From positions 1-9,872 of the forward strand of contig MNUP01000080.1 of NCBI GenBank assembly GCA_001871075.1: DNA of 9,872 nucleotides. The letters are read 5' to 3'. The notes beneath the pieces are model-generated. The model was not told the DNA's origin. It saw nothing but the letters and a program-made list of their open reading frames with translations, and ran no database searches. Made by a program: the position numbers and the translations under genes. The stretch is from Candidatus Desantisbacteria bacterium CG1_02_49_89 (lineage in GTDB: Bacteria; Desantisbacteria; UBA1551). Positions 650 through 9,872 of this stretch are shown one piece after another; position 1 is the first letter of the stretch; every line of letters starts with the position of its first letter.

Positions 650-3600
650 ATGAAGAAGATTTTATTCCTGGTTCTTATTTTAACTTTTAACTTTTCCGAA
701 TGGATCCCTTTGGGACAACTTTTAACTTTGAACTTTTGCCGCGCGGAAAACGCGCAGGTTGTAAGCAACCCGGGATTCGAGGAGCTTGACCAGGACGGGT
801 GGGCTCCCGGATGGCAGCAGGTCGGCTCCCTGGTTGAGGTCAGCACTAAGGAAGCGCATTCAGGCAAGAATTCCCTTCACTTACTGCGCGCTCCGGGGAT
901 ACCGGATCCTGAGACCGGCCTGAACCGCGACTGGAAACCGGATTCAGGCGAGCAGGGAACAATGCTTTCCCAGAAAAAGGGATGGATCTCATTCTGGTAT
1001 AAGGCACCCAAAGCCAAAGGCAATATTAAGATACTTACTATCCCGATGAGCGCCCGCCCAATGGAAGACACAGGAGAGCAGAGATCAGAGTTCACCATTC
1101 CCTTAGAGCACGTCGGAGACAGCAAGTGGCACCAGGGATGGGTCAAATTCGATTATTCGAAGAACCCTAAGGTCAAATGGGTCCATATCTCCCCCAGGAT
1201 CACCGGGGGCGAGGGAGAGATTTATCTGGATGATTTCGCGTATTTTGACAAGAAAGAAGGACAGCCGAAACTGAGCGAGGGTTCTTTTTCAGAGCCTGAA
1301 TCAGCAGGAGAGCCGGGTGAGGTAAAAGCGGTTGTAGAAAATATCGGGGACCTGGCACTTGCAGGCGTTAAGGTTGAGCTGAAGCTTCCCGCAGGCCTTA
1401 AATCAGATAAACCGCTGGTCCAGACCATCACGAACATTCCTGCGTCAGGCCAGCACACAGCTGTCTGGTCAGTAACAGGCATCAGTGATAAAGCAGAGAA
1501 AGCTAAAATTCTAGTTTACGACAGCAAGGGTGAGGTCGCGCAGTCAAAGGACCTGACCCTTAGGATCAGCCCAGAAACTGATAAAGGCCTTATAGCGTGG
1601 TGGAAGTTTGACGAAGGCAGCGGGACCCTGGCAAAAGATTCTTCCGGGAACGCGTTTGACGGCGAAATAGTGGGGGACGCTGACTGGGATAAGGGTATTT
1701 CCGGCAACGCTCTGAAATTGAACGGCGGGCGCGTCGAGGTCCAGTATGACGAAAAACTGGCGCTGGGCAAGGCGCTCTCGATCCAGATGTGGGTCTGCCC
1801 GACCGATTATGAGCCGGACACATACAAGATCCTGGTCGCTTTGTGGGACAGCTACCTCCTGCGTTTTGACAACCCGCCTGAAGGCGGCAGGCCTTCGTTC
1901 TTTGTGTTTTTGGAAGGGATACCTGAACCCAGGATACAGGGTAAAGTCCCGGAATTGAACAAGTGGGTTTGCGTGACAGCAGTGTGGGACGGCGCGAAAG
2001 ACCAGATATGGATCAACGGTGTAAAAACAGAATCGGACAGGAAGGGGCAAATTACGACCAAACCGAATAATCTTATGATCGGGGAGAATTTCATCGGTTT
2101 GATCGACGACGTCAAGATCTTCAACCGGGCGCTGAAAGAAGACGAGATCGTGGCAAACCTTCCCCCGTCCCCGAAAATTTCACCCTTAAAGGTTTCAACA
2201 CCGCTTGCCGAGACCGGCAAGCCTTTCACGCTTTCCTGCGAGGTTTCAAACGCCGGCGGGAAATCCGCGAAAGACGGCGCAGCGGAGCTTGCGCTCCCCA
2301 AGGGATTCACCATAATTGACGGGACCAGCAAGGTGAATATCGCGCTTCTGAGCAGGAAATCCCCGCAGACATTAAAGTGGACCGTTAAGTCAGACGTTCC
2401 GATTGCGGGCAGCGCGGTAATCACGGTCGGGTTCAGCGGGATGGAACAGCTCACTGCAAACTCGAGGATGGTTGTGGCAAAGCCCATTACGAAAGAGGGC
2501 GCGGTGCCTATAAAACCCGAGATCAGCAGGTCAGGTGATGATTTCATACTTGCGAACGATAAGGTGCGCCTTGTATTTCCTAAAAACGATTTCGGGTACG
2601 GGGTATTCGCTGTTGACGTCAATAAGGACGGGAAATGGGAGAGGGTGGCTTCCGCAAGCTCCCTGAGCTACCTTGCGGTCAAAAAGGACCAGAATATAAT
2701 AAGGAAACATATATACTGCGGTTCGGGAAACCCGATCCAGCTTGATTCCGGAGAGGCAGGCATTGAATTCAGGGATACGATAGATGACGGGACAGGCACT
2801 AACTGGAAGTTCCGCTGCCTGTTCCTTATAGGAAAAGACGACAGGATAAAGACGGAATACGAAGCAGTGCCTGACAAGGACGGCAGCCTTGTTGTTTTGT
2901 ACGGCCCGATGCTTTACGCGGGAGAGGGAAGTTTCGGCTCAAAGAAGGACGACGGCCTGTTCTGCGGGCTTGAGTGGCTGGTGGGAGACGAACAGTCTTC
3001 TTCCAACCTTGACATGCACGACCCTGACTATTATTTAAGGTATGTTCCGCACGGGAACAAGCCTACTATCCCGTTCATGGCGGTTTCAAAGGACGGGACT
3101 GCGATAGCCCTTATGTGGGACGCTTTGCAGAAATGGGATGGCGCAAACATAAGGCCTGCCGCGGTCTATGCGTCTCCAAATTTCATTGACGGTCAGGAAA
3201 ACCATCTAATGGGATTGTTCCTGCCTTCCACGATCGAGTGGCTGGGGCAGAACAACCTTGAGGCGGTCAGCAACCCGTATCCTTTTAAAAAAGGAGTGCC
3301 GCTGAAGATCGTTTCCCATATAGTCGCGGCAACGCCTGTAAAAGAATCCATAGATTGCCTTAACAGATGGTTCAATACATACGGTGTGACTGATCCTGCT
3401 CCGCTTCCGAGAGGCAGCTATACAAAAGAGATAGAATTCAGCATGAAGGCGTACCTTGAATCTTTATGGGCTGAAGGAGAGAAGCAGTGGTGGACATCCA
3501 AAGGCGGAGGGGATATGAGCCTGAAAGGGGTTCCGCCTTCTTTCGCGTTCCAGCTTAAAATGGCTTCTGTAATGACAAAAGACGAAGAGCTGAAAAAGAA

Positions 3601-5239
3601 ATATCTTGATATGGTTGACCGCGCAATGAAAATAGGCGGATTTTCAACAGTCTGGGGGGATGACGCGGGTTTCACATGGGCAAACCCGGCTGCTGCGATC
3701 CTGGGATTCGGCGGGCAGGCAGGTTCTCAGCTGGACGGGATGTGGGAGGACGGTTCATGGAGGTTCAGGACAAGGATAGGCACGTCTTTCCCGTTCAAGG
3801 GCTATGACTACGGCTTGCTTGGCCCGGACAAGGCGGCTGAACTCGGGACCTGCGCGAGGAGCGCGTATGAAGTCCTGAGGTTCGTGCGCATGACAGGGGA
3901 TTGGGAAGTTTTCAACACCGTAAAGAAATCGCTTGAATTCATGAAGCAGTTCAACGTTCCCCGCGCTGCCCAGGTATGGGAGTGCCCGGTGCACACCCCG
4001 GACATACTCGCGGCTGCTGACGCTGTTGATGCCTATATCGAAGCGTATTGGTTCACCGGTGAAAAACAGTATCTTGACGAGGCGATAAGGTGGGCGTGGG
4101 CAGGCATGCCTTTTGTGTATGTCTGGAACCAGCCTGACCATCCCGTGATGCGGTACGCGTCTATCGCTATATTCGGCGGCTCCCAGTATGGTTCTTCCTG
4201 GATAGGCCAGCCTGTGCAGTGGAACGGGCTGCGGTATGCTTACGCGATCCTGAAGCTTGCTGACCTTGACAAAACATTCCCCTGGCGCAAAGTTGCCGAG
4301 GGAATAACAATCAGCGCCATGTACCAGCAGAATGAAGAAGGCAAGGATGTCGCGCTGTGGCCTGATAACTTCAGCACTTCGAACGGGAAGCTGTGGGTCA
4401 AGTGCCCCTGGGTTTTTGAGCCGGGGCAGATCCTGAAGAACGTTTATAAGCTGCTTGACAGGGACCTGGAGCCCGCGACATACATCGCAGGCACAGGGAA
4501 AGAAAGGTTGTATATCAACGCCCGCGCGAAGGTCGCGGATATCGCCTGGAAAGAAAACAAGCTGAAATTCAGCGCGCTGTTCCCTGAGGGTGAGGGCGGC
4601 GGTTATATTGTGATCACGAGCATTGGCAGGCCGGTAAAGGTCACGCTTAACGGTTCGGAGCTTGCTGAAAACATTAAGGTTTACGGGAACAGGGACATTG
4701 GCTGGAAATACGAATCCGGCATGGGCTTCCTGTCAGTCAGGATCAACCAGGGAAAAGGCGCTGACAAGGTTGAGGTTGAAGGCGCGAAATACAGGTACAT
4801 TACCGTGATCCCCAAGCAGACAGACAAGATAGCGTTCACGTTTGATTCTGACATGGAAGGCTGGTCTCCCGTGAACCAGATAGACAACTTGACTTCAGAG
4901 GACGGCGTATTGAAGGGTAACGCGACAGGCGGCGATCCCTACATGAACAGGTCGCGCGTTAAGGTTGACGGCAACCTTTACAAGACCGTGAAAGTCCGCG
5001 CTAAAAGCAATTTCGGCAACGGCATAGCCATCTACTGGATCACGGCTGACAGCCCAGACTGGGCTGAGGACAAGGTCATACACCTGCCGCTTGCGCCTGA
5101 TTACCGGTTCCGCGAGTTCGTGTTCGAGGTCGGCAGGGACAATATGTGGGCAGGCAAGACCATAACAGGCATACGGCTTGATCCTGTTGAGGGCGGCACC
5201 GGCGGCAAGTTCGAAGTGGACTACATCAGGGGCGAATAA
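650..5239 (+). CDS. Secreted multidomain LamG protein with a glycosidase-like helical-barrel core
   Basis: 1529 residues. The ATG is set by GGAGG at 641-645, 4 nt upstream. Residues 1-32 are a signal peptide (probable cut after C-R-A). Visible modules: about 33-200, a carbohydrate-binding-like beta-sandwich (NPGFEE... ending YLDDFAYF); about 210-305, an Ig-like NEW3/CARDB-type domain; about 312-500, a LamG/concanavalin-like domain (WWKFDEGSGTLAKDSSG... FIGLIDDVKIFNRAL); about 510-610, a second Ig-like domain resembling the first; about 625-910, a beta-sandwich; about 920-1275, an alpha-helical repeat resembling six-hairpin glycosidases; about 1285-1385, a closing beta-domain; about 1392-1529, a C-terminal binding-like domain (FDSDMEGW... 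FEVDYIRG). Conserved-looking acids in the helical part include D1004/D1005 (WGDDAGF), E1033/D1034 (MWEDGSW), E1111 and D1118 (VWECPVHTPD), which are candidate catalytic residues only. I cannot place it in a numbered family. A role in extracellular glycan breakdown or binding is inferred. The membrane-protein gene follows after 149 bp. The signal-peptide codons contain a repeat with a 21-24 nt intrusion. Confidence 0.93.
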   Translation: MKKILFLVLILTFNFSEWIPLGQLLTLNFCRAENAQVVSNPGFEELDQDGWAPGWQQVGSLVEVSTKEAHSGKNSLHLLRAPGIPDPETGLNRDWKPDSGEQGTMLSQKKGWISFWYKAPKAKGNIKILTIPMSARPMEDTGEQRSEFTIPLEHVGDSKWHQGWVKFDYSKNPKVKWVHISPRITGGEGEIYLDDFAYFDKKEGQPKLSEGSFSEPESAGEPGEVKAVVENIGDLALAGVKVELKLPAGLKSDKPLVQTITNIPASGQHTAVWSVTGISDKAEKAKILVYDSKGEVAQSKDLTLRISPETDKGLIAWWKFDEGSGTLAKDSSGNAFDGEIVGDADWDKGISGNALKLNGGRVEVQYDEKLALGKALSIQMWVCPTDYEPDTYKILVALWDSYLLRFDNPPEGGRPSFFVFLEGIPEPRIQGKVPELNKWVCVTAVWDGAKDQIWINGVKTESDRKGQITTKPNNLMIGENFIGLIDDVKIFNRALKEDEIVANLPPSPKISPLKVSTPLAETGKPFTLSCEVSNAGGKSAKDGAAELALPKGFTIIDGTSKVNIALLSRKSPQTLKWTVKSDVPIAGSAVITVGFSGMEQLTANSRMVVAKPITKEGAVPIKPEISRSGDDFILANDKVRLVFPKNDFGYGVFAVDVNKDGKWERVASASSLSYLAVKKDQNIIRKHIYCGSGNPIQLDSGEAGIEFRDTIDDGTGTNWKFRCLFLIGKDDRIKTEYEAVPDKDGSLVVLYGPMLYAGEGSFGSKKDDGLFCGLEWLVGDEQSSSNLDMHDPDYYLRYVPHGNKPTIPFMAVSKDGTAIALMWDALQKWDGANIRPAAVYASPNFIDGQENHLMGLFLPSTIEWLGQNNLEAVSNPYPFKKGVPLKIVSHIVAATPVKESIDCLNRWFNTYGVTDPAPLPRGSYTKEIEFSMKAYLESLWAEGEKQWWTSKGGGDMSLKGVPPSFAFQLKMASVMTKDEELKKKYLDMVDRAMKIGGFSTVWGDDAGFTWANPAAAILGFGGQAGSQLDGMWEDGSWRFRTRIGTSFPFKGYDYGLLGPDKAAELGTCARSAYEVLRFVRMTGDWEVFNTVKKSLEFMKQFNVPRAAQVWECPVHTPDILAAADAVDAYIEAYWFTGEKQYLDEAIRWAWAGMPFVYVWNQPDHPVMRYASIAIFGGSQYGSSWIGQPVQWNGLRYAYAILKLADLDKTFPWRKVAEGITISAMYQQNEEGKDVALWPDNFSTSNGKLWVKCPWVFEPGQILKNVYKLLDRDLEPATYIAGTGKERLYINARAKVADIAWKENKLKFSALFPEGEGGGYIVITSIGRPVKVTLNGSELAENIKVYGNRDIGWKYESGMGFLSVRINQGKGADKVEVEGAKYRYITVIPKQTDKIAFTFDSDMEGWSPVNQIDNLTSEDGVLKGNATGGDPYMNRSRVKVDGNLYKTVKVRAKSNFGNGIAIYWITADSPDWAEDKVIHLPLAPDYRFREFVFEVGRDNMWAGKTITGIRLDPVEGGTGGKFEVDYIRGE
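678..733. repeat. Heptamer array split by a 21-24 nt block inside signal-peptide codons
   Basis: TTTTAAC at 678-684 and 685-691, then TTTT (692-695), a block at 696-716 with core TCCCTTTGGGA, then AAC (717-719), TTTTAAC (720-726) and TTTGAAC (727-733). The block therefore splits one heptamer. It encodes most of S16-Q23 (SEWIPLGQ), placing polar and charged residues in an otherwise hydrophobic leader. Removing 696-719 (24 nt) keeps the frame open with a continuous hydrophobic run; removing only 696-716 would create TTT-TAA. Unit length 7 is not a multiple of 3, so gain or loss of a unit would shift frame. Confidence 0.75.
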
Positions 5240-5255
5240 TCCCTGAAAGACATTG

Positions 5256-5335
5256 CAAATTTCAAATTGTCTCAAAAGGACCCTTTCGGGATTTATAGAA
5301 AATTTGAAATTTACAATTTTCAATTTGACTTTTGA
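5256..5335. repeat. Inverted heptamer arrays around a CCCTTTCGGG core
   Basis: The left arm has CAAATTT (5256-5262) and CAAATTG (5263-5269). The right arm has AATTTGA (5301-5307), AATTTAC, AATTTTC, AATTTGA (5322-5328) and CTTTTGA (5329-5335), all in register at 7 nt. AAATTTCAAATT (5257-5268) is the exact 12-nt reverse complement of 5301-5312. Between the arms lies GGACCCTTTCGGGATT, with CCC/GGG able to pair. It fills most of the 149-bp spacer between the large secreted protein and the membrane protein. It could act as a weak terminator or processing site, but it has no clean T-tract. A further 8-nt tandem, GACACTTT twice, lies at 5353-5368. Confidence 0.75.
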
Positions 5336-5388
5336 AATAGTTTTTAAACTCTGACACTTTGACACTTTATTTCAAAAGGAGGGGTAAC

Positions 5389-7326
5389 ATGACTGGAAGG
5401 GCACTGGTTATCGGTATCGTGTGCGTGCTGGCTCTGGCGTTCGCAATCCCGTATTGCGACCTGGTGATGCACGGGACGTGGGTCGGGCTGACGGCTTTTC
5501 CCATTTCATCGTTCTTTACGTTCGTGGTCCTGGTGCTGGGAATCAATTTTCTTCTGAAGTTATTGAAGATAGGGCTGAAACCCGGGGAACTGCTGACCAT
5601 TTACGTGATGATGCTTGTGGGAGCGGGTATCCCTTCGTTCGGCCTGACAGGGCTTCTTATACCGTATATCGCGGGCCCTTTCTATTTCGCGAGCCCGGAA
5701 AACAAGTTCGCGGAAACCTTCCACCAGTATATCCCGCAGTGGATGAAGCCTTCCACGCCGGAAGCGGTAACCTACCTTTATGAAGGCCTGCCCGCGGGAC
5801 AAAAGATACCCTGGGCAGCGTGGACCCAGCCGCTTATTATGTGGACCCTGCTCGCGCTCGCGGTCTATCTTGTTTTTTTCTGCCTGAGCACCGTGCTGAG
5901 GAAGCAGTGGATAGAGAACGAAAAGCTCATATTCCCGCTCACTTCAGTGCCGGTGGAAATGGCGGCGCAGGAAGAAGGGGATAAAAGCCTTGTCCCTCCT
6001 TTCTTCAAGAACAAGGTCATGTGGATGTTCTTCGCGGTTCCCTTTATAATCCACGCCATCAACGGGCTTTCATTCTATTTCCCCGCTATCCCGAAGATCA
6101 ACGTCCAGCTTATCGACATAGGCAGGTTCGTCGCGCAGAAGAAGCCTTTCAACCAGCTTATCTGCCTGTGGCTGCGGATCCCTTTCAGCATCATAGGCCT
6201 GACCTATATCCTGCCGGTCCAGCTTTCTTTCTCCCTGTGGTTTTTTTACATTTTCTTCAGGTTCCAGGAGCTGATCGGCGCTACGATGGGATTCCCAATG
6301 CCGTTCGTGCAGGCTTACCCTGTGCGCGCTTTTGTCGCGCACCAGATGGCAGGCGGGATATTAGTATTCGCCGTGATAAGCCTGTGGGCGATGCGCAAGC
6401 ATCTTAAGGATATGTTCAGGAAGGCGTTTACCGGAGACAAGGCAATTGATGATTCAGGCGAGATGCTGTCGTACCGGTTCGCGATCTTCGGGCTGATCAT
6501 AGGCATGGTCGGCATCTCTTTCTGGGGCAAAGCGATGGGCGCTTCGTTCTGGCTGACCCTGCTCCTTTTCGTGATCTATTTCCTGATGCACATCGTCGCG
6601 GTGCGGCTCGTGTGCGAGGGCGGCATGCTTTACGTCCAGCACCCCCTTAGGCCCTGGAACATGATCATGCTTGCCGGGGGAAGCGCGATGTTCAGCCCCG
6701 TCAACATAACATGGATGACCTTCTTTGACCATCTCTGGATGGTTGACAACAGAAGCCCGCTTATGCCTCCGATAATGCAGGGCCTTAAGATCTCCGAGGC
6801 GATCCCGGGCAAGAACCGCAGGCTGCTTGCGGTGGGGATGGTGGTGTCGGTGCTGCTTGCGATAGTGGTGTCCTACTGGTCATACATGAGGCTGATGTAC
6901 AAGTTCGGGGGAGTGAACCTTCACTACTGGTTCACCACGTATTACACGAAGAACCTTTTCTCCTCGTGGACCACGTACCTGATAAACACGGGTGAGAAAG
7001 CCCAGCCCATGGGCCTTGTGTCAATGGGGATCGGCGGAGCCACGATGTGGTTCCTTATGTTCATGCACCGCACGTTCCTGTGGTGGCCTTTCTCCCCGAT
7101 AGGGTACCTTATGGGAGCGTCCTGGCCGATGATAAACTTCTGGTTCCCGATATTCCTCGGTTGGCTGGTAAAGACCATAGTCATGAGGATCGGGGGTATC
7201 AAGGTTTACAGGCTGCTGATGCCGGGTTTCCTGGGTTTCATCTTCGCCGAGTTCCTAAGCGCCGGGATGTGGGTCGCGATCGACTTCTTCACCGGGGTCA
7301 AGGGCCACGAGATCTTCTCCTTTTAA
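5389..7326 (+). CDS. Polytopic membrane protein, DUF6785/DUF6784-like, probable transporter
   Basis: 645 residues. The ATG at 5389 is chosen because AAAGGAGG (5375-5382) lies 6 nt upstream; an in-frame TTG at 5359 would put that Shine-Dalgarno inside the gene. I count about 12-13 hydrophobic segments, roughly at residues 5-25, 37-58, 68-95, 147-170, 210-230, 265-288, 320-336, 363-380, 385-405, 480-500, 544-560, 575-595 and 612-634. Characteristic stretches are STVLRKQWIENEKLIFPLTS (167-186), RLVCEGGMLYVQHPLRPWN (406-424) and the C-terminal GWLVKTIVMRIGGIKVYR (591-608). From memory these match the paired uncharacterised domains DUF6785 (N-terminal) and DUF6784 (C-terminal), whose members sometimes carry transporter-type annotations. 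Substrate unknown. The position between two secreted LamG proteins suggests, but does not show, uptake or export of a glycan-related compound. Co-transcription with the upstream gene is possible, since I see no convincing promoter in the spacer. Confidence 0.9.
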   Translation: MTGRALVIGIVCVLALAFAIPYCDLVMHGTWVGLTAFPISSFFTFVVLVLGINFLLKLLKIGLKPGELLTIYVMMLVGAGIPSFGLTGLLIPYIAGPFYFASPENKFAETFHQYIPQWMKPSTPEAVTYLYEGLPAGQKIPWAAWTQPLIMWTLLALAVYLVFFCLSTVLRKQWIENEKLIFPLTSVPVEMAAQEEGDKSLVPPFFKNKVMWMFFAVPFIIHAINGLSFYFPAIPKINVQLIDIGRFVAQKKPFNQLICLWLRIPFSIIGLTYILPVQLSFSLWFFYIFFRFQELIGATMGFPMPFVQAYPVRAFVAHQMAGGILVFAVISLWAMRKHLKDMFRKAFTGDKAIDDSGEMLSYRFAIFGLIIGMVGISFWGKAMGASFWLTLLLFVIYFLMHIVAVRLVCEGGMLYVQHPLRPWNMIMLAGGSAMFSPVNITWMTFFDHLWMVDNRSPLMPPIMQGLKISEAIPGKNRRLLAVGMVVSVLLAIVVSYWSYMRLMYKFGGVNLHYWFTTYYTKNLFSSWTTYLINTGEKAQPMGLVSMGIGGATMWFLMFMHRTFLWWPFSPIGYLMGASWPMINFWFPIFLGWLVKTIVMRIGGIKVYRLLMPGFLGFIFAEFLSAGMWVAIDFFTGVKGHEIFSF

Positions 7327-7342
7327 ATTTATTCCCTGATCT

Positions 7343-7366
7343 TCTTCCCCCTCTGAAGGGGGAAGA
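7343..7366. terminator. Perfect 10-bp hairpin after the membrane-protein gene
   Basis: TCTTCCCCCT (7343-7352) pairs perfectly with AGGGGGAAGA (7357-7366) around CTGA, starting 16 nt after the stop codon. No T-tract follows, so intrinsic termination on the + strand is doubtful. It may be a processing or stability hairpin, or one member of a dispersed CCCCC/GGGGG palindrome family also seen at 9463-9509. Confidence 0.5.
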
Positions 7367-7388
7367 CTGAGATGGGGGTGTTGTTTGC

Positions 7389-7410
7389 GGGAGAGGGCTG
7401 GGGTGAGGGG
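7389..7410. repeat. Purine-rich GGGAGAGGG...GGTGAGGGG stretch
   Basis: All purine except a CT and a T. From memory, similar GGGAGAGGG-GGTGAGGGG sequences are common dispersed intergenic words in many bacterial genomes. No gene or stem is evident here. Confidence 0.35.
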
Positions 7411-7432
7411 CAGATCATCAGATAGATGTAAC

Positions 7433-7450
7433 TCAGGCCTTTAGGCCTGA
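7433..7450. repeat. Hairpin with C-TTTA-G tip
   Basis: TCAGGCC (7433-7439) pairs with GGCCTGA (7444-7450) around TTTA. It has the same tip as the hairpins at 477-490, 9341-9358 and 9366-9383 with a different stem. Confidence 0.65.
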
Positions 7451-7465
7451 AGTCTGAAATGTTGA

Positions 7466-7513
7466 CTTATGGCTAATGGTCTATGGTTGTGTTTAACGAT
7501 AAGCCATAAGCCA
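7466..7513. repeat. Inverted heptamer arrays upstream of the second LamG gene
   Basis: The left arm has CTTATGG (7466-7472), CTAATGG (7473-7479) and TCTATGG (7480-7486); the right arm has TAAGCCA twice (7500-7513). The right units are the reverse complement of rotated left units, so CTTATGGCT (7466-7474) pairs exactly with AGCCATAAG (7502-7510). The centre is 13 nt (7487-7499). It ends 34 nt before the chosen start codon and could form a leader hairpin; no regulatory role is shown. Confidence 0.7.
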
Positions 7514-7547
7514 TATGCGGATTTATAATTTATGGACGGGAGGGATT

Positions 7548-9218
7548 ATGCGTAAAATTTTCTTGTTGTTAGTCTTAACTTTCAGCTTTCAGCTCCTTCG
7601 GGCTTTCAGCTGCAGTTACGCCGCCGGCCTGCCCTGGGTCCAGGGCCCGGGGGAATTTGCAAGCGGGTCAAGCACTAAAATTGAGAATTCGGTTCTCATA
7701 TTTCACCTGGATGAGGGCTCAGGTACATTTGCAGGCGATGTTTCCGGTTACGGAAACAACGGGACGCTTGGTGCCGCCCAGTGGGGGACGGGTAAAATAG
7801 GGGGGGCTGCGGATTGCGGCGCGGGCGGGTCTATATCAGTTGCTGATGCAAATTCTCTTGACCTGACCAATAAAATGACCATACTGCTCTGGGCAAGGTA
7901 CGACAGCGACAATTCAGATTACCTGCAAATTATCCGGAAAAGCAATTCGTTTGTTGTAAGGCGCGACAATTCTGGGGAAGGCCTCCAGATAAGCTCATTT
8001 ATCAAGACAGACGCGTCATTTGAGCCGAGGGCATCAAGCGGGTTCGTCCCGGTTTTGGGTGAATGGTTCCATGCAGCCATGACTTTTGACGGGACAACAA
8101 TGAAACTTTACATTAACGGTGAGCTGAAAGGTTCAGTCGAAAGATCCGGTTCAATTAACGTGGGCGCGGATCCTGTCCTGATCGGCAGCAAATGGCCCGG
8201 GCTGATAGATGAGGTTAAAATATATAACAGCTGTTTTTCTTCGGACGAGATAAAAGCTGATTACGGCGGCTCAGGGTTTTTCGGGCGTTTTCTTTCTCCC
8301 GGCGGCGTACTGGAATCAACTGAATGTGACTGCGAGGAAAGCGCAACGCTTGGCAGGATGGATTGGGTTGCCGACGTTCCGCAGGGCTGCACCCTGTCCT
8401 TTTACGCAAGCATAAAGGACGAACTGACAGGGTTGTGGGCCGAGACAGGCCCGTACCGTTCAAGCGGCAGCATCCTGCAGCTTCCGCCTTCCAGGTACAT
8501 AAAATACAGGGCTCAGGTTGAAATTCCGTCTAATTCCAGGGCCGAAGTCTTACTGAAAGAGGTTAAAATATATCCTGCTTTGCAGGGCATAGCATCGAGC
8601 AATGCCGCGGGTCCCACACTTATATTTAAAAATGAAGACAAGATGACGCTTGACCTGTATTTCAACGTGCCGATGGATTCAAACAACGGCAGCTGCTTTG
8701 TTGACCTGACCGATGAGAATAACGTTGTGATCCACATAAGCACCGGCGACGGGACATGGATTGATTCAATGCATTTTCAGACGAAGCCGTTTGATCTGTA
8801 CGGTCAGAATATATCAGGGGGGTTCGCAAGCCTGACGATCACCGGGCCCAATCCGGTCGGCAACACGAACACGAACACCCTTTACTGTTATGCGCCGCGC
8901 TATATCCTGGTAGATGCGGGCGGGAACCCTGTTCCAAATTCCTTTTTCCCCAATCCTTTTTCGCCCAACGGGGACGGCAAGGCAGACCAGACAACTCTGC
9001 TGCTTATGCTTCCTTCACCGAAGACCATTACCGTGAAGATCTATGACCTTAAAGGAAGGCTGGTCAAAGTCCTTGTTGAGAACAGGGTGGGTATGGGCGA
9101 AGGGATAATCTGGGACGGAACAGACGAGCTGGGCAGGATATGCCCGGTCGGGCTTTATATTTACCAGATCAGGATGGATAATGAATTCAAGAACGGCTCG
9201 GTCGTTTTAGCCAAATAA
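7548..9218 (+). CDS. Secreted LamG protein with FlgD/CHU_C-like C-terminal domain
   Basis: 556 residues from the ATG at 7548, chosen because GGGAGGG (7538-7544) is just upstream. An earlier in-frame ATG at 7515 sits in a repeat without a Shine-Dalgarno and would place 11 polar residues before the MRK... leader. Residues 1-25 are a signal peptide (likely cut S-Y-A). About 45-240 is a LamG domain (LDEGSGTFAGDVSGYGNNG... GLIDEVKIYNSCFSSDEI). About 243-342 is a beta-sandwich module with a SRYIKYRAQVEI-type strand. About 350-462 looks Ig-like. About 464-556 contains FFPNPFSPNGDGKADQ, VKIYDLKGRLVKVL, WDGTDELGR and GLYIYQIRM, the pattern of FlgD Ig-like and gliding-motility/CHU_C C-terminal domains, often a surface-sorting or structural tail. 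No catalytic site is evident. Glycan or surface binding is inferred. Its LamG domain resembles that of the 1529-residue protein. Confidence 0.92.
   Translation: MRKIFLLLVLTFSFQLLRAFSCSYAAGLPWVQGPGEFASGSSTKIENSVLIFHLDEGSGTFAGDVSGYGNNGTLGAAQWGTGKIGGAADCGAGGSISVADANSLDLTNKMTILLWARYDSDNSDYLQIIRKSNSFVVRRDNSGEGLQISSFIKTDASFEPRASSGFVPVLGEWFHAAMTFDGTTMKLYINGELKGSVERSGSINVGADPVLIGSKWPGLIDEVKIYNSCFSSDEIKADYGGSGFFGRFLSPGGVLESTECDCEESATLGRMDWVADVPQGCTLSFYASIKDELTGLWAETGPYRSSGSILQLPPSRYIKYRAQVEIPSNSRAEVLLKEVKIYPALQGIASSNAAGPTLIFKNEDKMTLDLYFNVPMDSNNGSCFVDLTDENNVVIHISTGDGTWIDSMHFQTKPFDLYGQNISGGFASLTITGPNPVGNTNTNTLYCYAPRYILVDAGGNPVPNSFFPNPFSPNGDGKADQTTLLLMLPSPKTITVKIYDLKGRLVKVLVENRVGMGEGIIWDGTDELGRICPVGLYIYQIRMDNEFKNGSVVLAK
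7579..7609. repeat. Heptamer array with CCTTCGGG block in signal-peptide codons
   Basis: CTTTCAG at 7579-7585 and 7586-7592, then the 10-nt block CTCCTTCGGG (7593-7602), then CTTTCAG (7603-7609). The layout matches 678-733: heptamers, a CCTT-GGG block, then heptamers, again in the codons of a signal peptide. Here the block encodes part of Q15-L16-L17-R18-A19. Confidence 0.7.
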
Positions 9219-9235
9219 CGAGCAGGATGTTTTTC

Positions 9236-9311
9236 GTGTAAGGTGCCCGCCCAGACATCTGTCTGGGCGAGGTCTCGCCCCGATGAATATCGGGGCGGAT
9301 AAGGTGTAAGG
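9236..9311. repeat. Two hairpins bracketed by an 8-bp direct repeat
   Basis: GTGTAAGG occurs at 9236-9243 and 9304-9311. Between the copies are CGCCCAGACA/TGTCTGGGCG (9248-9269, 10-bp stem, TC loop) and CGCCCCGAT/ATCGGGGCG (9276-9297, 9-bp stem, GAAT loop). The direct repeat has the size of a target-site duplication, consistent with an inserted palindromic element, but a chance 8-mer cannot be excluded. It starts 17 nt after the stop of the LamG gene; either hairpin may protect the mRNA 3' end. Confidence 0.55.
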
Positions 9312-9335
9312 CAAGATTATGCGTAGAGATATTTC

Positions 9336-9411
9336 GTAGGGCAAGCCTTCAGGCTTGCTGGTAGCCGCAGGCTTTAGCCTGCGATAGGTAGGGGCGCAAT
9401 TCATTGCGCCC
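9336..9411. repeat. Three consecutive GTAG-led hairpins
   Basis: GTAG recurs at 9336, 9361 and 9388, each followed within 1-5 nt by a perfect stem: GCAAGCC/GGCTTGC around TTCA (9341-9358), CGCAGGC/GCCTGCG around TTTA (9366-9383) and GGGCGCAAT/ATTGCGCCC around TC (9392-9411). The stems are unrelated in sequence; the leading GTAG and the spacing of 25-27 nt are shared. A related unit is at 474-490. Confidence 0.65.
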
Positions 9412-9462
9412 GATTTGCAGCGGTCCCGATTCATCAGCACGTATTTTACAGGATTTCAATAT

Positions 9463-9509
9463 AAATCCCCCTATTTCCCCCTTTTAAAAAGGGGGATGAA
9501 GGGGGATTT
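9463..9509. terminator. CCCCC/GGGGG double palindrome, possible bidirectional terminator
   Basis: The inner stem is CCCCCTTTT (9477-9485) with AAAAGGGGG (9487-9495). The outer stem is AAATCCCCC (9463-9471) with GGGGGATTT (9501-9509). A T-rich run follows (9506-9516), as in an intrinsic terminator. It lies between the LamG gene and the argC promoter, where a terminator would be expected. Palindromes of this type are dispersed in many bacterial genomes, so it may primarily be a repeat element. Confidence 0.6.
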
Positions 9510-9516
9510 TATTTTC

Positions 9517-9545
9517 TTGACTTTTTCATATTTTTATGATATAAT
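9517..9545 (+). promoter_or_regulatory. Strong sigma-70 promoter with extended -10
   Basis: TTGACT (-35, 9517-9522), 17-bp spacer, TATAAT (-10, 9540-9545) preceded by TGA at 9537-9539, giving TGnTATAAT. This is one mismatch from full consensus in an AT-rich setting. Predicted start is near 9552, giving an argC leader of about 220 nt. It begins just after the terminator-like palindrome. Confidence 0.85.
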
Positions 9546-9578
9546 ATTACCCTGTTTCAATTTGCAACATACTGAAAC

Positions 9579-9608
9579 CACACGATTTCACAGATTAACA
9601 CGAGATTC
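9579..9608 (+). repeat. Decamer array, left arm
   Basis: Three 10-nt units in register: CACACGATTT, CACAGATTAA, CACGAGATTC. The inverted counterpart is at 9727-9756. CACAGATT/CACGGATT words of this kind are widespread in intergenic DNA of many bacteria (general recollection). Confidence 0.65.
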
Positions 9609-9619
9609 TATACTAATCT

Positions 9620-9711
9620 GTCATTGCGAACCGAAGCCGCGAGCGAAGCGTGGCGGGCAGGTGAAGCAATCTTGTATTAGATTGTTTCGTCATTTCATTC
9701 CTCGCAATGAC
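9620..9711. mobile_element. 92-bp MITE-like palindrome with GTCATTGCGA ends
   Basis: Terminal inverted repeats are GTCATTGCGA (9620-9629) and TCGCAATGAC (9702-9711). An inner stem GAAGCAATCT (9663-9672) pairs with AGATTGTTTC (9679-9688), one mismatch. The GCGAGCGAAGCG portion is typical of the dispersed ATTGCGAG...GAAGCAATC palindromes found across many bacterial phyla. No transposase is nearby, so it would move only in trans, if at all. It lies inside the predicted argC leader. Confidence 0.75.
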
Positions 9712-9726
9712 CCGCTTCTACGGCAG

Positions 9727-9756
9727 GTCATCTGTGGAAATCCGTGAGAATCTGTG
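9727..9756 (-). repeat. Decamer array, right arm (inverted)
   Basis: Read on the minus strand: CACAGATTCT (9747-9756), CACGGATTTC (9737-9746) and CACAGATGAC (9727-9736), the same decamer family as the left arm in the opposite direction. It ends 4 nt before the argC Shine-Dalgarno. Confidence 0.65.
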
Positions 9757-9771
9757 GTTAAAGGAGCTTTA

Positions 9772-9872
9772 ATGGTTAAAGTTGGAATAGCGGGTGTAAC
9801 AGGAATGGCGGGAGAGGAACTGTTGAAAATTCTCCTCGGCCACAATGGTGTTGAAATAACCTATATAGGCTC
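9772..9872 (+). CDS. argC: N-acetyl-gamma-glutamyl-phosphate reductase, N-terminus (partial)
   Basis: The first 33 codons, cut by the window end. ATG at 9772 with AAGGAG at 9761-9766, 5 nt upstream. The product opens MVKVGIAGVTGMAGEELL and continues through HNGVEITYIG, the N-terminal Rossmann strand, G-x-x-G-x-x-G NADP-binding loop and second strand typical of ArgC. ArgC reduces N-acetylglutamyl-5-phosphate to the semialdehyde, the third step of arginine biosynthesis, in the cytoplasm. The catalytic cysteine region lies beyond the window. Transcription probably starts near 9552. LysY-type relatives and aspartate-semialdehyde dehydrogenases share the fold, but the wording of this segment fits ArgC best. 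Confidence 0.85.
   Translation, partial: MVKVGIAGVTGMAGEELLKILLGHNGVEITYIG

Follow-up and report, generated by a model that had tools for sequence, protein, structure and literature searches.

The window, that is, the whole 9,872-nt stretch of DNA that we analyzed, is contig C31 of a draft genome (2.48 Mb in 150 contigs, 93.5% complete, 1.8% contamination). ORFs were assigned mechanically at a threshold of at least 100 aa, and the gene contexts given here are therefore approximate. The genes and repeat features of the window are listed below, with the evidence for each in parentheses.

650–5239, plus strand: secreted LamG/NEW3-domain protein; its signal peptide MKKILFLVLILTFNFSEWIPLGQLLTLNFCRAENA contains the array at 678–737 (ORF; Pfam Laminin_G_3 and NPCBM_assoc)
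678–695, plus strand: left half of a TTTTAAC heptamer array (TRF; lag-7 identity 11/11)
696–716, plus strand: dispersed palindrome of 21 nt, CCGAATGGATCCCTTTGGGAC, cleanly inserted into the array (excision restores the register, 30/32)
717–737, plus strand: right half of the TTTTAAC heptamer array (TRF; lag-7 identity 12/14)
5253–5271, plus strand: weakly periodic left arm, GCAAATTTCAAATTG, of an inverted element (folds with 5300–5318; lag-7 identity 6/13)
5281–5290, no strand: palindrome CCCTTTCGGG nested in the centre of the inverted element (sequence; family counts)
5300–5338, plus strand: right arm, an AAATTTG/CAATTTT heptamer array (TRF; lag-7 identity 23/32)
5348–5368, plus strand: period-8 array ACTTTGAC, of the family of the genome's GTGTCAAC octamer arms (TRF; period-8 family)
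5389–7326, plus strand: DUF6785/DUF6784 membrane protein, downstream of the 5253–5338 element (Pfam)
7428–7450, no strand: REP-like hairpin GTAACTCAGGCCTTTAGGCCTGA, of the type of the repeats that flank two RAYT genes on contig C23 (sequence; comparison of RAYT flanks)
7466–7486, plus strand: left arm CTTATGG/CTAATGG/TCTATGG (lag-7 identity 10/14; fold)
7499–7515, plus strand: right arm ATAAGCC, inverted relative to 7466–7486 (TRF; fold; lag-7 identity 10/10)
7549–9218, plus strand: LamG/CHU_C (type IX signal) protein; its signal peptide MRKIFLLLVLTFSFQLLRAFSCSYAA contains the array at 7579–7609 (ORF; Pfam)
7579–7612, plus strand: CTTTCAG heptamer array broken by CTCCTTCGGG, within the signal peptide (TRF; fold; lag-7 identity)
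9579–9612, plus strand: left decamer arm of the CACAGATTAACACGAGATT type (lag-10 identity 10/24; period-10 family of the genome)
9619–9711, no strand: nested dispersed repeat TGTCATTGCGAAC...TCGCAATGACC (related 174-bp and shorter families)
9728–9760, plus strand: right decamer arm AATCCGTGAGAATCTGTGG; the next gene starts beyond it, at 9772 (lag-10 identity 14/23)

The ATG at position 650 is preceded by the Shine-Dalgarno (SD) sequence GGAGG, the start at 7549 likewise has an SD sequence, and the ORF starting at 9772 carries a Semialdhyde_dh domain. Paralogs of the DUF6785/DUF6784 protein in this genome number five (C31, C129, C94, C87 and C135), the C94 copy having one in-frame TGA. Several hairpins cluster at 9241–9420, and a GTAG-like foot is present in some of them (GTAGGGCAAGCCTTCAGGCTTGCT and those next to it).

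Strong period-7 arrays numbered three in the window, compared with 0.01 in shuffles. The earlier note had described five arrays in exact register, and period-7 sub-arrays are indeed present at the places it named, with the one at 7579–7594 confirmed by TRF and lag-7 identity. The register does not, however, hold over the full ranges given for 678–733, 5256–5335, 7466–7513 and 7579–7609 (lag-7 identity 0.43, 0.44, 0.59 and 0.54), the left arm at 5256–5275 is not periodic when taken alone, and the period-10 array placed at 9579–9756 consists of two weak decamer arms. The array at 678–733 is direct and is broken by the 21-nt insert. Among the three arrays that had been called inverted, the arms at 5256–5335 and at 7466–7513 do fold together, while 9579–9756 is a weak inverted pair of decamers flanking a palindrome, TCATTGCGA...TCGCAATGA, that differs from the proposed CCTT(T)(S)GGG core. 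Half-sites of the TGTCATTGCGAAC...TCGCAATGACC repeat occur 216 times genome-wide, versus 78 in a shuffle, and BLAST found about 40 sites in the genome similar to the array at 5300–5338. The period-8 array at 5348–5368, which had been overlooked, lies directly before the SD sequence of the next gene. The arrays had also been placed next to start codons; this was half right, since those at 678–733 and 7579–7609 lie 28–83 and 30–60 nt inside the genes that start at 650 and 7549. The closeness of arrays to start codons comes from short gaps between genes and from insertions in signal peptides.

A genome-wide scan, which the earlier note had suggested, strongly supported the arrays. Within the 1.907 of 2.48 Mb that were scanned, a strict threshold (at least 18 matches in 21 comparisons) yielded 356, 81, 60 and 23 arrays of periods 7, 8, 9 and 10, respectively, compared with 0 in an order-1 shuffle; a looser threshold (17 matches) yielded 494, 137, 92 and 64, some 800 altogether, compared with 0–1 in such shuffles. 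Arrays of periods 5, 6 and 11 were nearly missing from the scan. The window itself carries a period-6 array, AGATTG, of 4.3 copies at 421–446, a period near absent elsewhere in the genome. Though the detector admits arrays from 18 bp upwards, period-7 spans peak at 30–32 bp (median ∼4.4 units) instead of decaying with copy number as in slippage microsatellites; secondary span modes lie at 34–36 bp for period 8 (median 4.1 units), at 40–44 bp for period 9 and at 28–30 bp for period 10 (∼2.9 units).

The period-7 arrays comprise 101 distinct canonical unit sequences, and array units are linked by single changes into a near-continuous network. A pattern common to the heptamer units is weak (3.98 bits, against a null of up to 3.71), and a single unit motif shared by all arrays was rejected on this ground. 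The genome agrees with the suggestion that what is maintained is shape and length, not sequence: it has 101 units, a preferred span of 30–32 bp and one centre found across units and periods. Three of the five window arrays had been described as inverted; genome-wide, inverted pairs within 300 bp do outnumber direct ones (68 versus 24), but most arrays are solitary, and a strong inverted partner lies within 150 bp of only ∼13% of them. Intergenic gaps that bear arrays are, after subtraction of the array span, about as long as array-free gaps (median 90.5 versus 106).

Arrays also occur within genes, where they favour signal peptides. When signal-likeness was judged, by a home-made rule, on the first 12 residues, before the array, heptamer arrays were present in 14 of 101 signal-like N-termini and in 4 of 540 others (odds 21.6, p = 5e-9); a looser count, with the array included in the judgement, gave 24 of 154 and 6 of 501. 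Array density was 57 per 65.5 kb in N-terminal regions versus 57 per 690 kb inside genes, and in signal-like N-termini it was near the intergenic level and far above that in mid-gene sequence. Units within signal peptides include TTACACG, AACTTTC, ACTGGAC, CTATGGT and CTTTCAG; TTATGAA, the commonest unit, has stop codons and was not seen there. In-frame heptamer arrays in signal-peptide coding sequence were found on contigs C23, C34, C37, C65, C67, C75, C94, C98, C104, C111, C112, C117, C120, C130, C134 and C139. The arrays at 678–737 and 7579–7612, both in signal-peptide coding sequence, belong to this genome-wide pattern.

The best inverted family consists of 36 TTATGAA elements of ∼100 bp with a common layout, AATTATGAATTATGAATGATGAATTATGAATCAA-nnnCAAGGA-TTTATTTAAAT-TTCCTTG-nnGTTGATTCATAACTCATAATTCATAACTCATAATT. 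These elements usually begin a few tens of bases from a stop codon and end directly before the next ribosome-binding site. Mean column identity was 79% across 22 aligned copies, and copy number differs by one unit between elements. Their centre, CAACnGCAAGGA...TCCTTGCnGTTG, is also found between period-8 GTGTCAAC octamer arms, and a shorter form of it sits between GATCCTA heptamer arms. Using a profile built from the TTATGAA centres alone, we found that all matches outside the family, up to an E value of 0.5, lie beside GTGTCAAC or GATCCTA arrays, while a shuffled genome gave 0 matches below 0.01. Arm polarity is fixed (10 of 10 for period 8, 10 of 12 for period 9), and some arrays are nested within the centres of others. 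One arm of the TTATGAA elements carries a variant unit; of the 24 elements that could be oriented, 19 have this arm towards the stop codon (two-sided binomial p ∼ 0.007).

The CCTT(T)(S)GGG or CCTTTGGG core had been regarded as part of the array design; it proved to be a separate, nested dispersed palindrome. Palindromes of the CCCTTYGGG type (21–22 nt) occupy 188 sites, whereas a shuffle gave 47; most lie outside arrays, with 38 of the 188 in array zones. Within 678–737 this palindrome is the clean 21-nt insert. As a shared array core, CCTTTGGG was rejected, its 31 occurrences in arrays showing no clear enrichment over the 23.6 expected from the intergenic share. Several CCCTTYGGG palindromes sit in AACTTTT arrays at an identical point, TTT^AAC, and their excision restores the heptamer register. 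Some of the small palindromes belong to RAYT/REP families, because two Y1 genes on C23 have tandem CAGGGCTAAAGCCCTGA and TCAAACCTGAAGGTTTGA hairpins at their flanks, and a gene on C111 has CCCCAACAAGTTGGGG there. These RAYT-like Y1 transposase genes with tandem REP hairpin flanks lie at C23:1739–2222, C23:3765–4248 and C111:7530–8076. The genome has 10 Y1_Tnp matches; in the eight genes examined, heptamer arrays were never the genes' own flanking repeat, and since the flanks bear REP hairpins or other repeats instead, RAYT was rejected as the mover of the arrays. A search for reverse transcriptase gave one partial RVT_1 match. Other dispersed repeats are very abundant in this genome as well, among them AAAGATGATTACGGTGATTATTT (k-mer count 81) and the TATTTCGTGCTTTCGTGGAAATC family.

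Evidence for turnover came from individual loci. An unrelated gene on C36 carries the array-plus-insert block of 678–733 in its own signal peptide, identical at 50 of 50 nt, and C38 has a near copy; CCGAATGGATCCCTTTGGGAC has exact copies at C36:9448 and C38:17979. Paralogs on C75, C79, C130 and C139 share an array slot, and an N-terminal motif suggests that they are PorV-like; a Pfam search with a 70-residue piece gave no match. The mature genes on C75 and C79 share 53% identity, and their arrays are identical at 31 of 31 nt, while the genes on C130 and C139 are 87% identical yet hold different array units in one slot. Counts of pairwise homology are no proof of copying, because similarity among arrays of the same unit is partly trivial.

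We consider it somewhat probable that the arrays are dispersing miniature cassettes, MITE- or REPIN-like in behaviour, that are tolerated wherever sequence is free. This reading builds on the abundance and preferred size of the arrays, the shared centre, the identical blocks in unrelated genes and the permissiveness of the sites; the route of copying is what we infer. A cassette would measure ∼30–40 bp, its unit being repeated ∼4.4 times if 7, 8 or 9 bp long and ∼2.9 times if 10 bp long; some cassettes would form the two inverted arms of ∼100-bp elements, on either side of a palindromic centre. Whole blocks would be copied or converted between sites, and an array of another unit could take over the position of a block, as seen at a few loci and presumably more generally. 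Arrays would persist at unconstrained sequence, as they do in the short gaps from stop codon to ribosome-binding site, and in the hydrophobic stretch of signal peptides if, as observed there, the unit is open in all three frames. Smaller palindromes, some of the RAYT/REP type, would insert into arrays later, as the nested insertions show. Spread may proceed by strand-slippage expansion combined with ectopic conversion, or by transposition in trans, and persistence would require no host function. The main unexplained point is the stop-side bias of the variant arm, which is not expected of a neutral inserter. A bolder version, possible although we think it unlikely, is that a mechanism reading period and length rather than sequence propagates an element class whose arms can change unit or even period at an unchanged site and around an unchanged centre, with its modules recruited genome-wide as hydrophobic cores of signal peptides.

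The same bias of 19:5 would suit host binding sites, by which the arrays would be rows of contact sites for an IHF/HU-like nucleoid protein or global regulator, with the unit number set by the protein footprint. Such a role, published as a proposal for the paired 7/8-mer sites of Geobacter metallireducens (PMC2700814), could also explain the preferred span and unit number and the fixed arm polarity of the period-8 and period-9 arrays; 101 heptamer units and four periods with a weak common pattern are unlike the site of one protein, and many arrays lie within signal-peptide coding sequence; the role appears improbable here. Still less probable are ordinary microsatellites, each array being produced on its own by slippage of the polymerase and drifting afterwards. 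The near-continuous network of units and the one-unit differences in copy number are what slippage might leave behind; a span peaking at 30–32 bp without monotone decay, an identical composite block in unrelated genes, and an inverted layout with a palindromic centre in common are not.

The location of the inverted elements between the stop codon and the ribosome-binding site of codirectional genes, and the array density, which is lowest in divergent gaps (1.5 versus 2.7 per kb), would agree with RNA hairpins acting in transcripts as terminators or stabilizers between genes. We hold this to be very unlikely, however, as most arrays are solitary and the stems gave no sign of selection for pairing. 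Compensatory double changes were seen in 0 of 34 stem pairs across the 22 aligned elements, below any shuffle (15 cells in shuffles), a weak negative because the rows, set by gene direction, mix both element orientations. Mismatches on the sense strand showed no wobble bias (G.U 83, A.C 93), and RNA pairing is thus unsupported; an Rfam search gave no match. That the arrays are an artefact of assembly or binning, for which the fragmentation, completeness and contamination of this draft metagenome genome could be invoked, seems exceedingly improbable: arrays are read in frame within intact ORFs on many contigs, and similar inverted elements occur in independent Poribacteria records and in other genomes.

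The combination of features, which the earlier note did not recognize, has a partial precedent in paired opposite-strand tandem 7-/8-mer sites published for G. metallireducens. Its classes 1–3 and H4 have three to five tandem 7-/8-mers, or a TCTCCGTS[Y] unit, per site, and a handful of unit sequences each occupy about 16 to 49 sites, mostly as opposite-strand pairs at variable distance, with many copies per genome (PMC2700814). Tandem 7-/8-mers, some paired on opposite strands, are found here too, and the median unit numbers (4.4 for period 7, 4.1 for period 8) fall within the same three to five per site. Unlike those sites, ours form ∼800 arrays with 101 heptamer units, a cross-family centre and many members in signal peptides, and they are not mostly opposite-strand pairs even though inverted pairs prevail over direct ones. 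The direct TAACTGA heptamer repeats of Beggiatoaceae and cyanobacteria are mostly intergenic, just upstream of start codons; one unit dominates, almost always in direct orientation with one inverted repeat reported, and related heptamers are rarely repeated (PMC4679880). Short heptamer arrays, mainly intergenic and a short way upstream of start codons, are the likeness here; TAACTGA-type arrays have one unit, are direct and overlap the ribosome-binding site, while the present arrays have 101 units and SD sequences usually lie outside them.

Like REPINs and REPs with their RAYTs (PMC3116915), the inverted elements are dispersed and miniature, and the RAYTs of this genome are flanked by their own REP hairpins, which also nest in arrays. 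The arms here are instead periodic arrays of interchangeable units, and they are not classed as REPINs because none flank the RAYTs examined. The 36 TTATGAA elements resemble MITEs in being short, dispersed and bounded by terminal inverted repeats; inspection of the printed elements by eye revealed no evident target-site duplication. Bacterial MITEs such as RPE and YPAL/RU-2 are ∼100-bp stem-loops located intergenically or, in frame, inside genes, and one Yersinia signal peptide is formed partly by a MITE (PMC2229807). In contrast, about two dozen signal peptides here carry short multi-unit heptamer arrays rather than one full element. In Nostoc, the small dispersed repeats (SDR) of 21–27 nt described by Elhai and colleagues in 2008 are reportedly palindromic and embedded in tandem heptamers. 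Small palindromes embedded in heptamer arrays are seen here as well, although sequences and phylum differ.

Bacterial tandem arrays of 6–10 nt have usually been recorded unit by unit and left unexplained. This genome offers hundreds of them together, with a preferred size, interchangeable units, a common centre and a countable site preference, so that the question of their spread becomes directly testable. The arrays in signal peptides also offer a natural experiment in the reshaping of export signals by inserted repeats.

The nearest relative of this genome used for comparison is related at the order level only. Among 290 genomes, the TTACACG array was found only in this one, while AGTTRTC arrays were present in 10, with a backwards control also matching in two genomes; in two of the 10 (G025 and G224) they form inverted pairs of the same polarity. 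Loci from other phyla, 1.2 Mb in total, contained 15 period-7 arrays, nearly all in Poribacteria, several of them inverted pairs with a centre of their own, TTAAGAGG...CCTCTTAA. Inverted 7-/8-mer elements of Poribacteria lie at L198 20420–20535, L202 19014–19138, L211 11979–12075 and L208 17864–17935.
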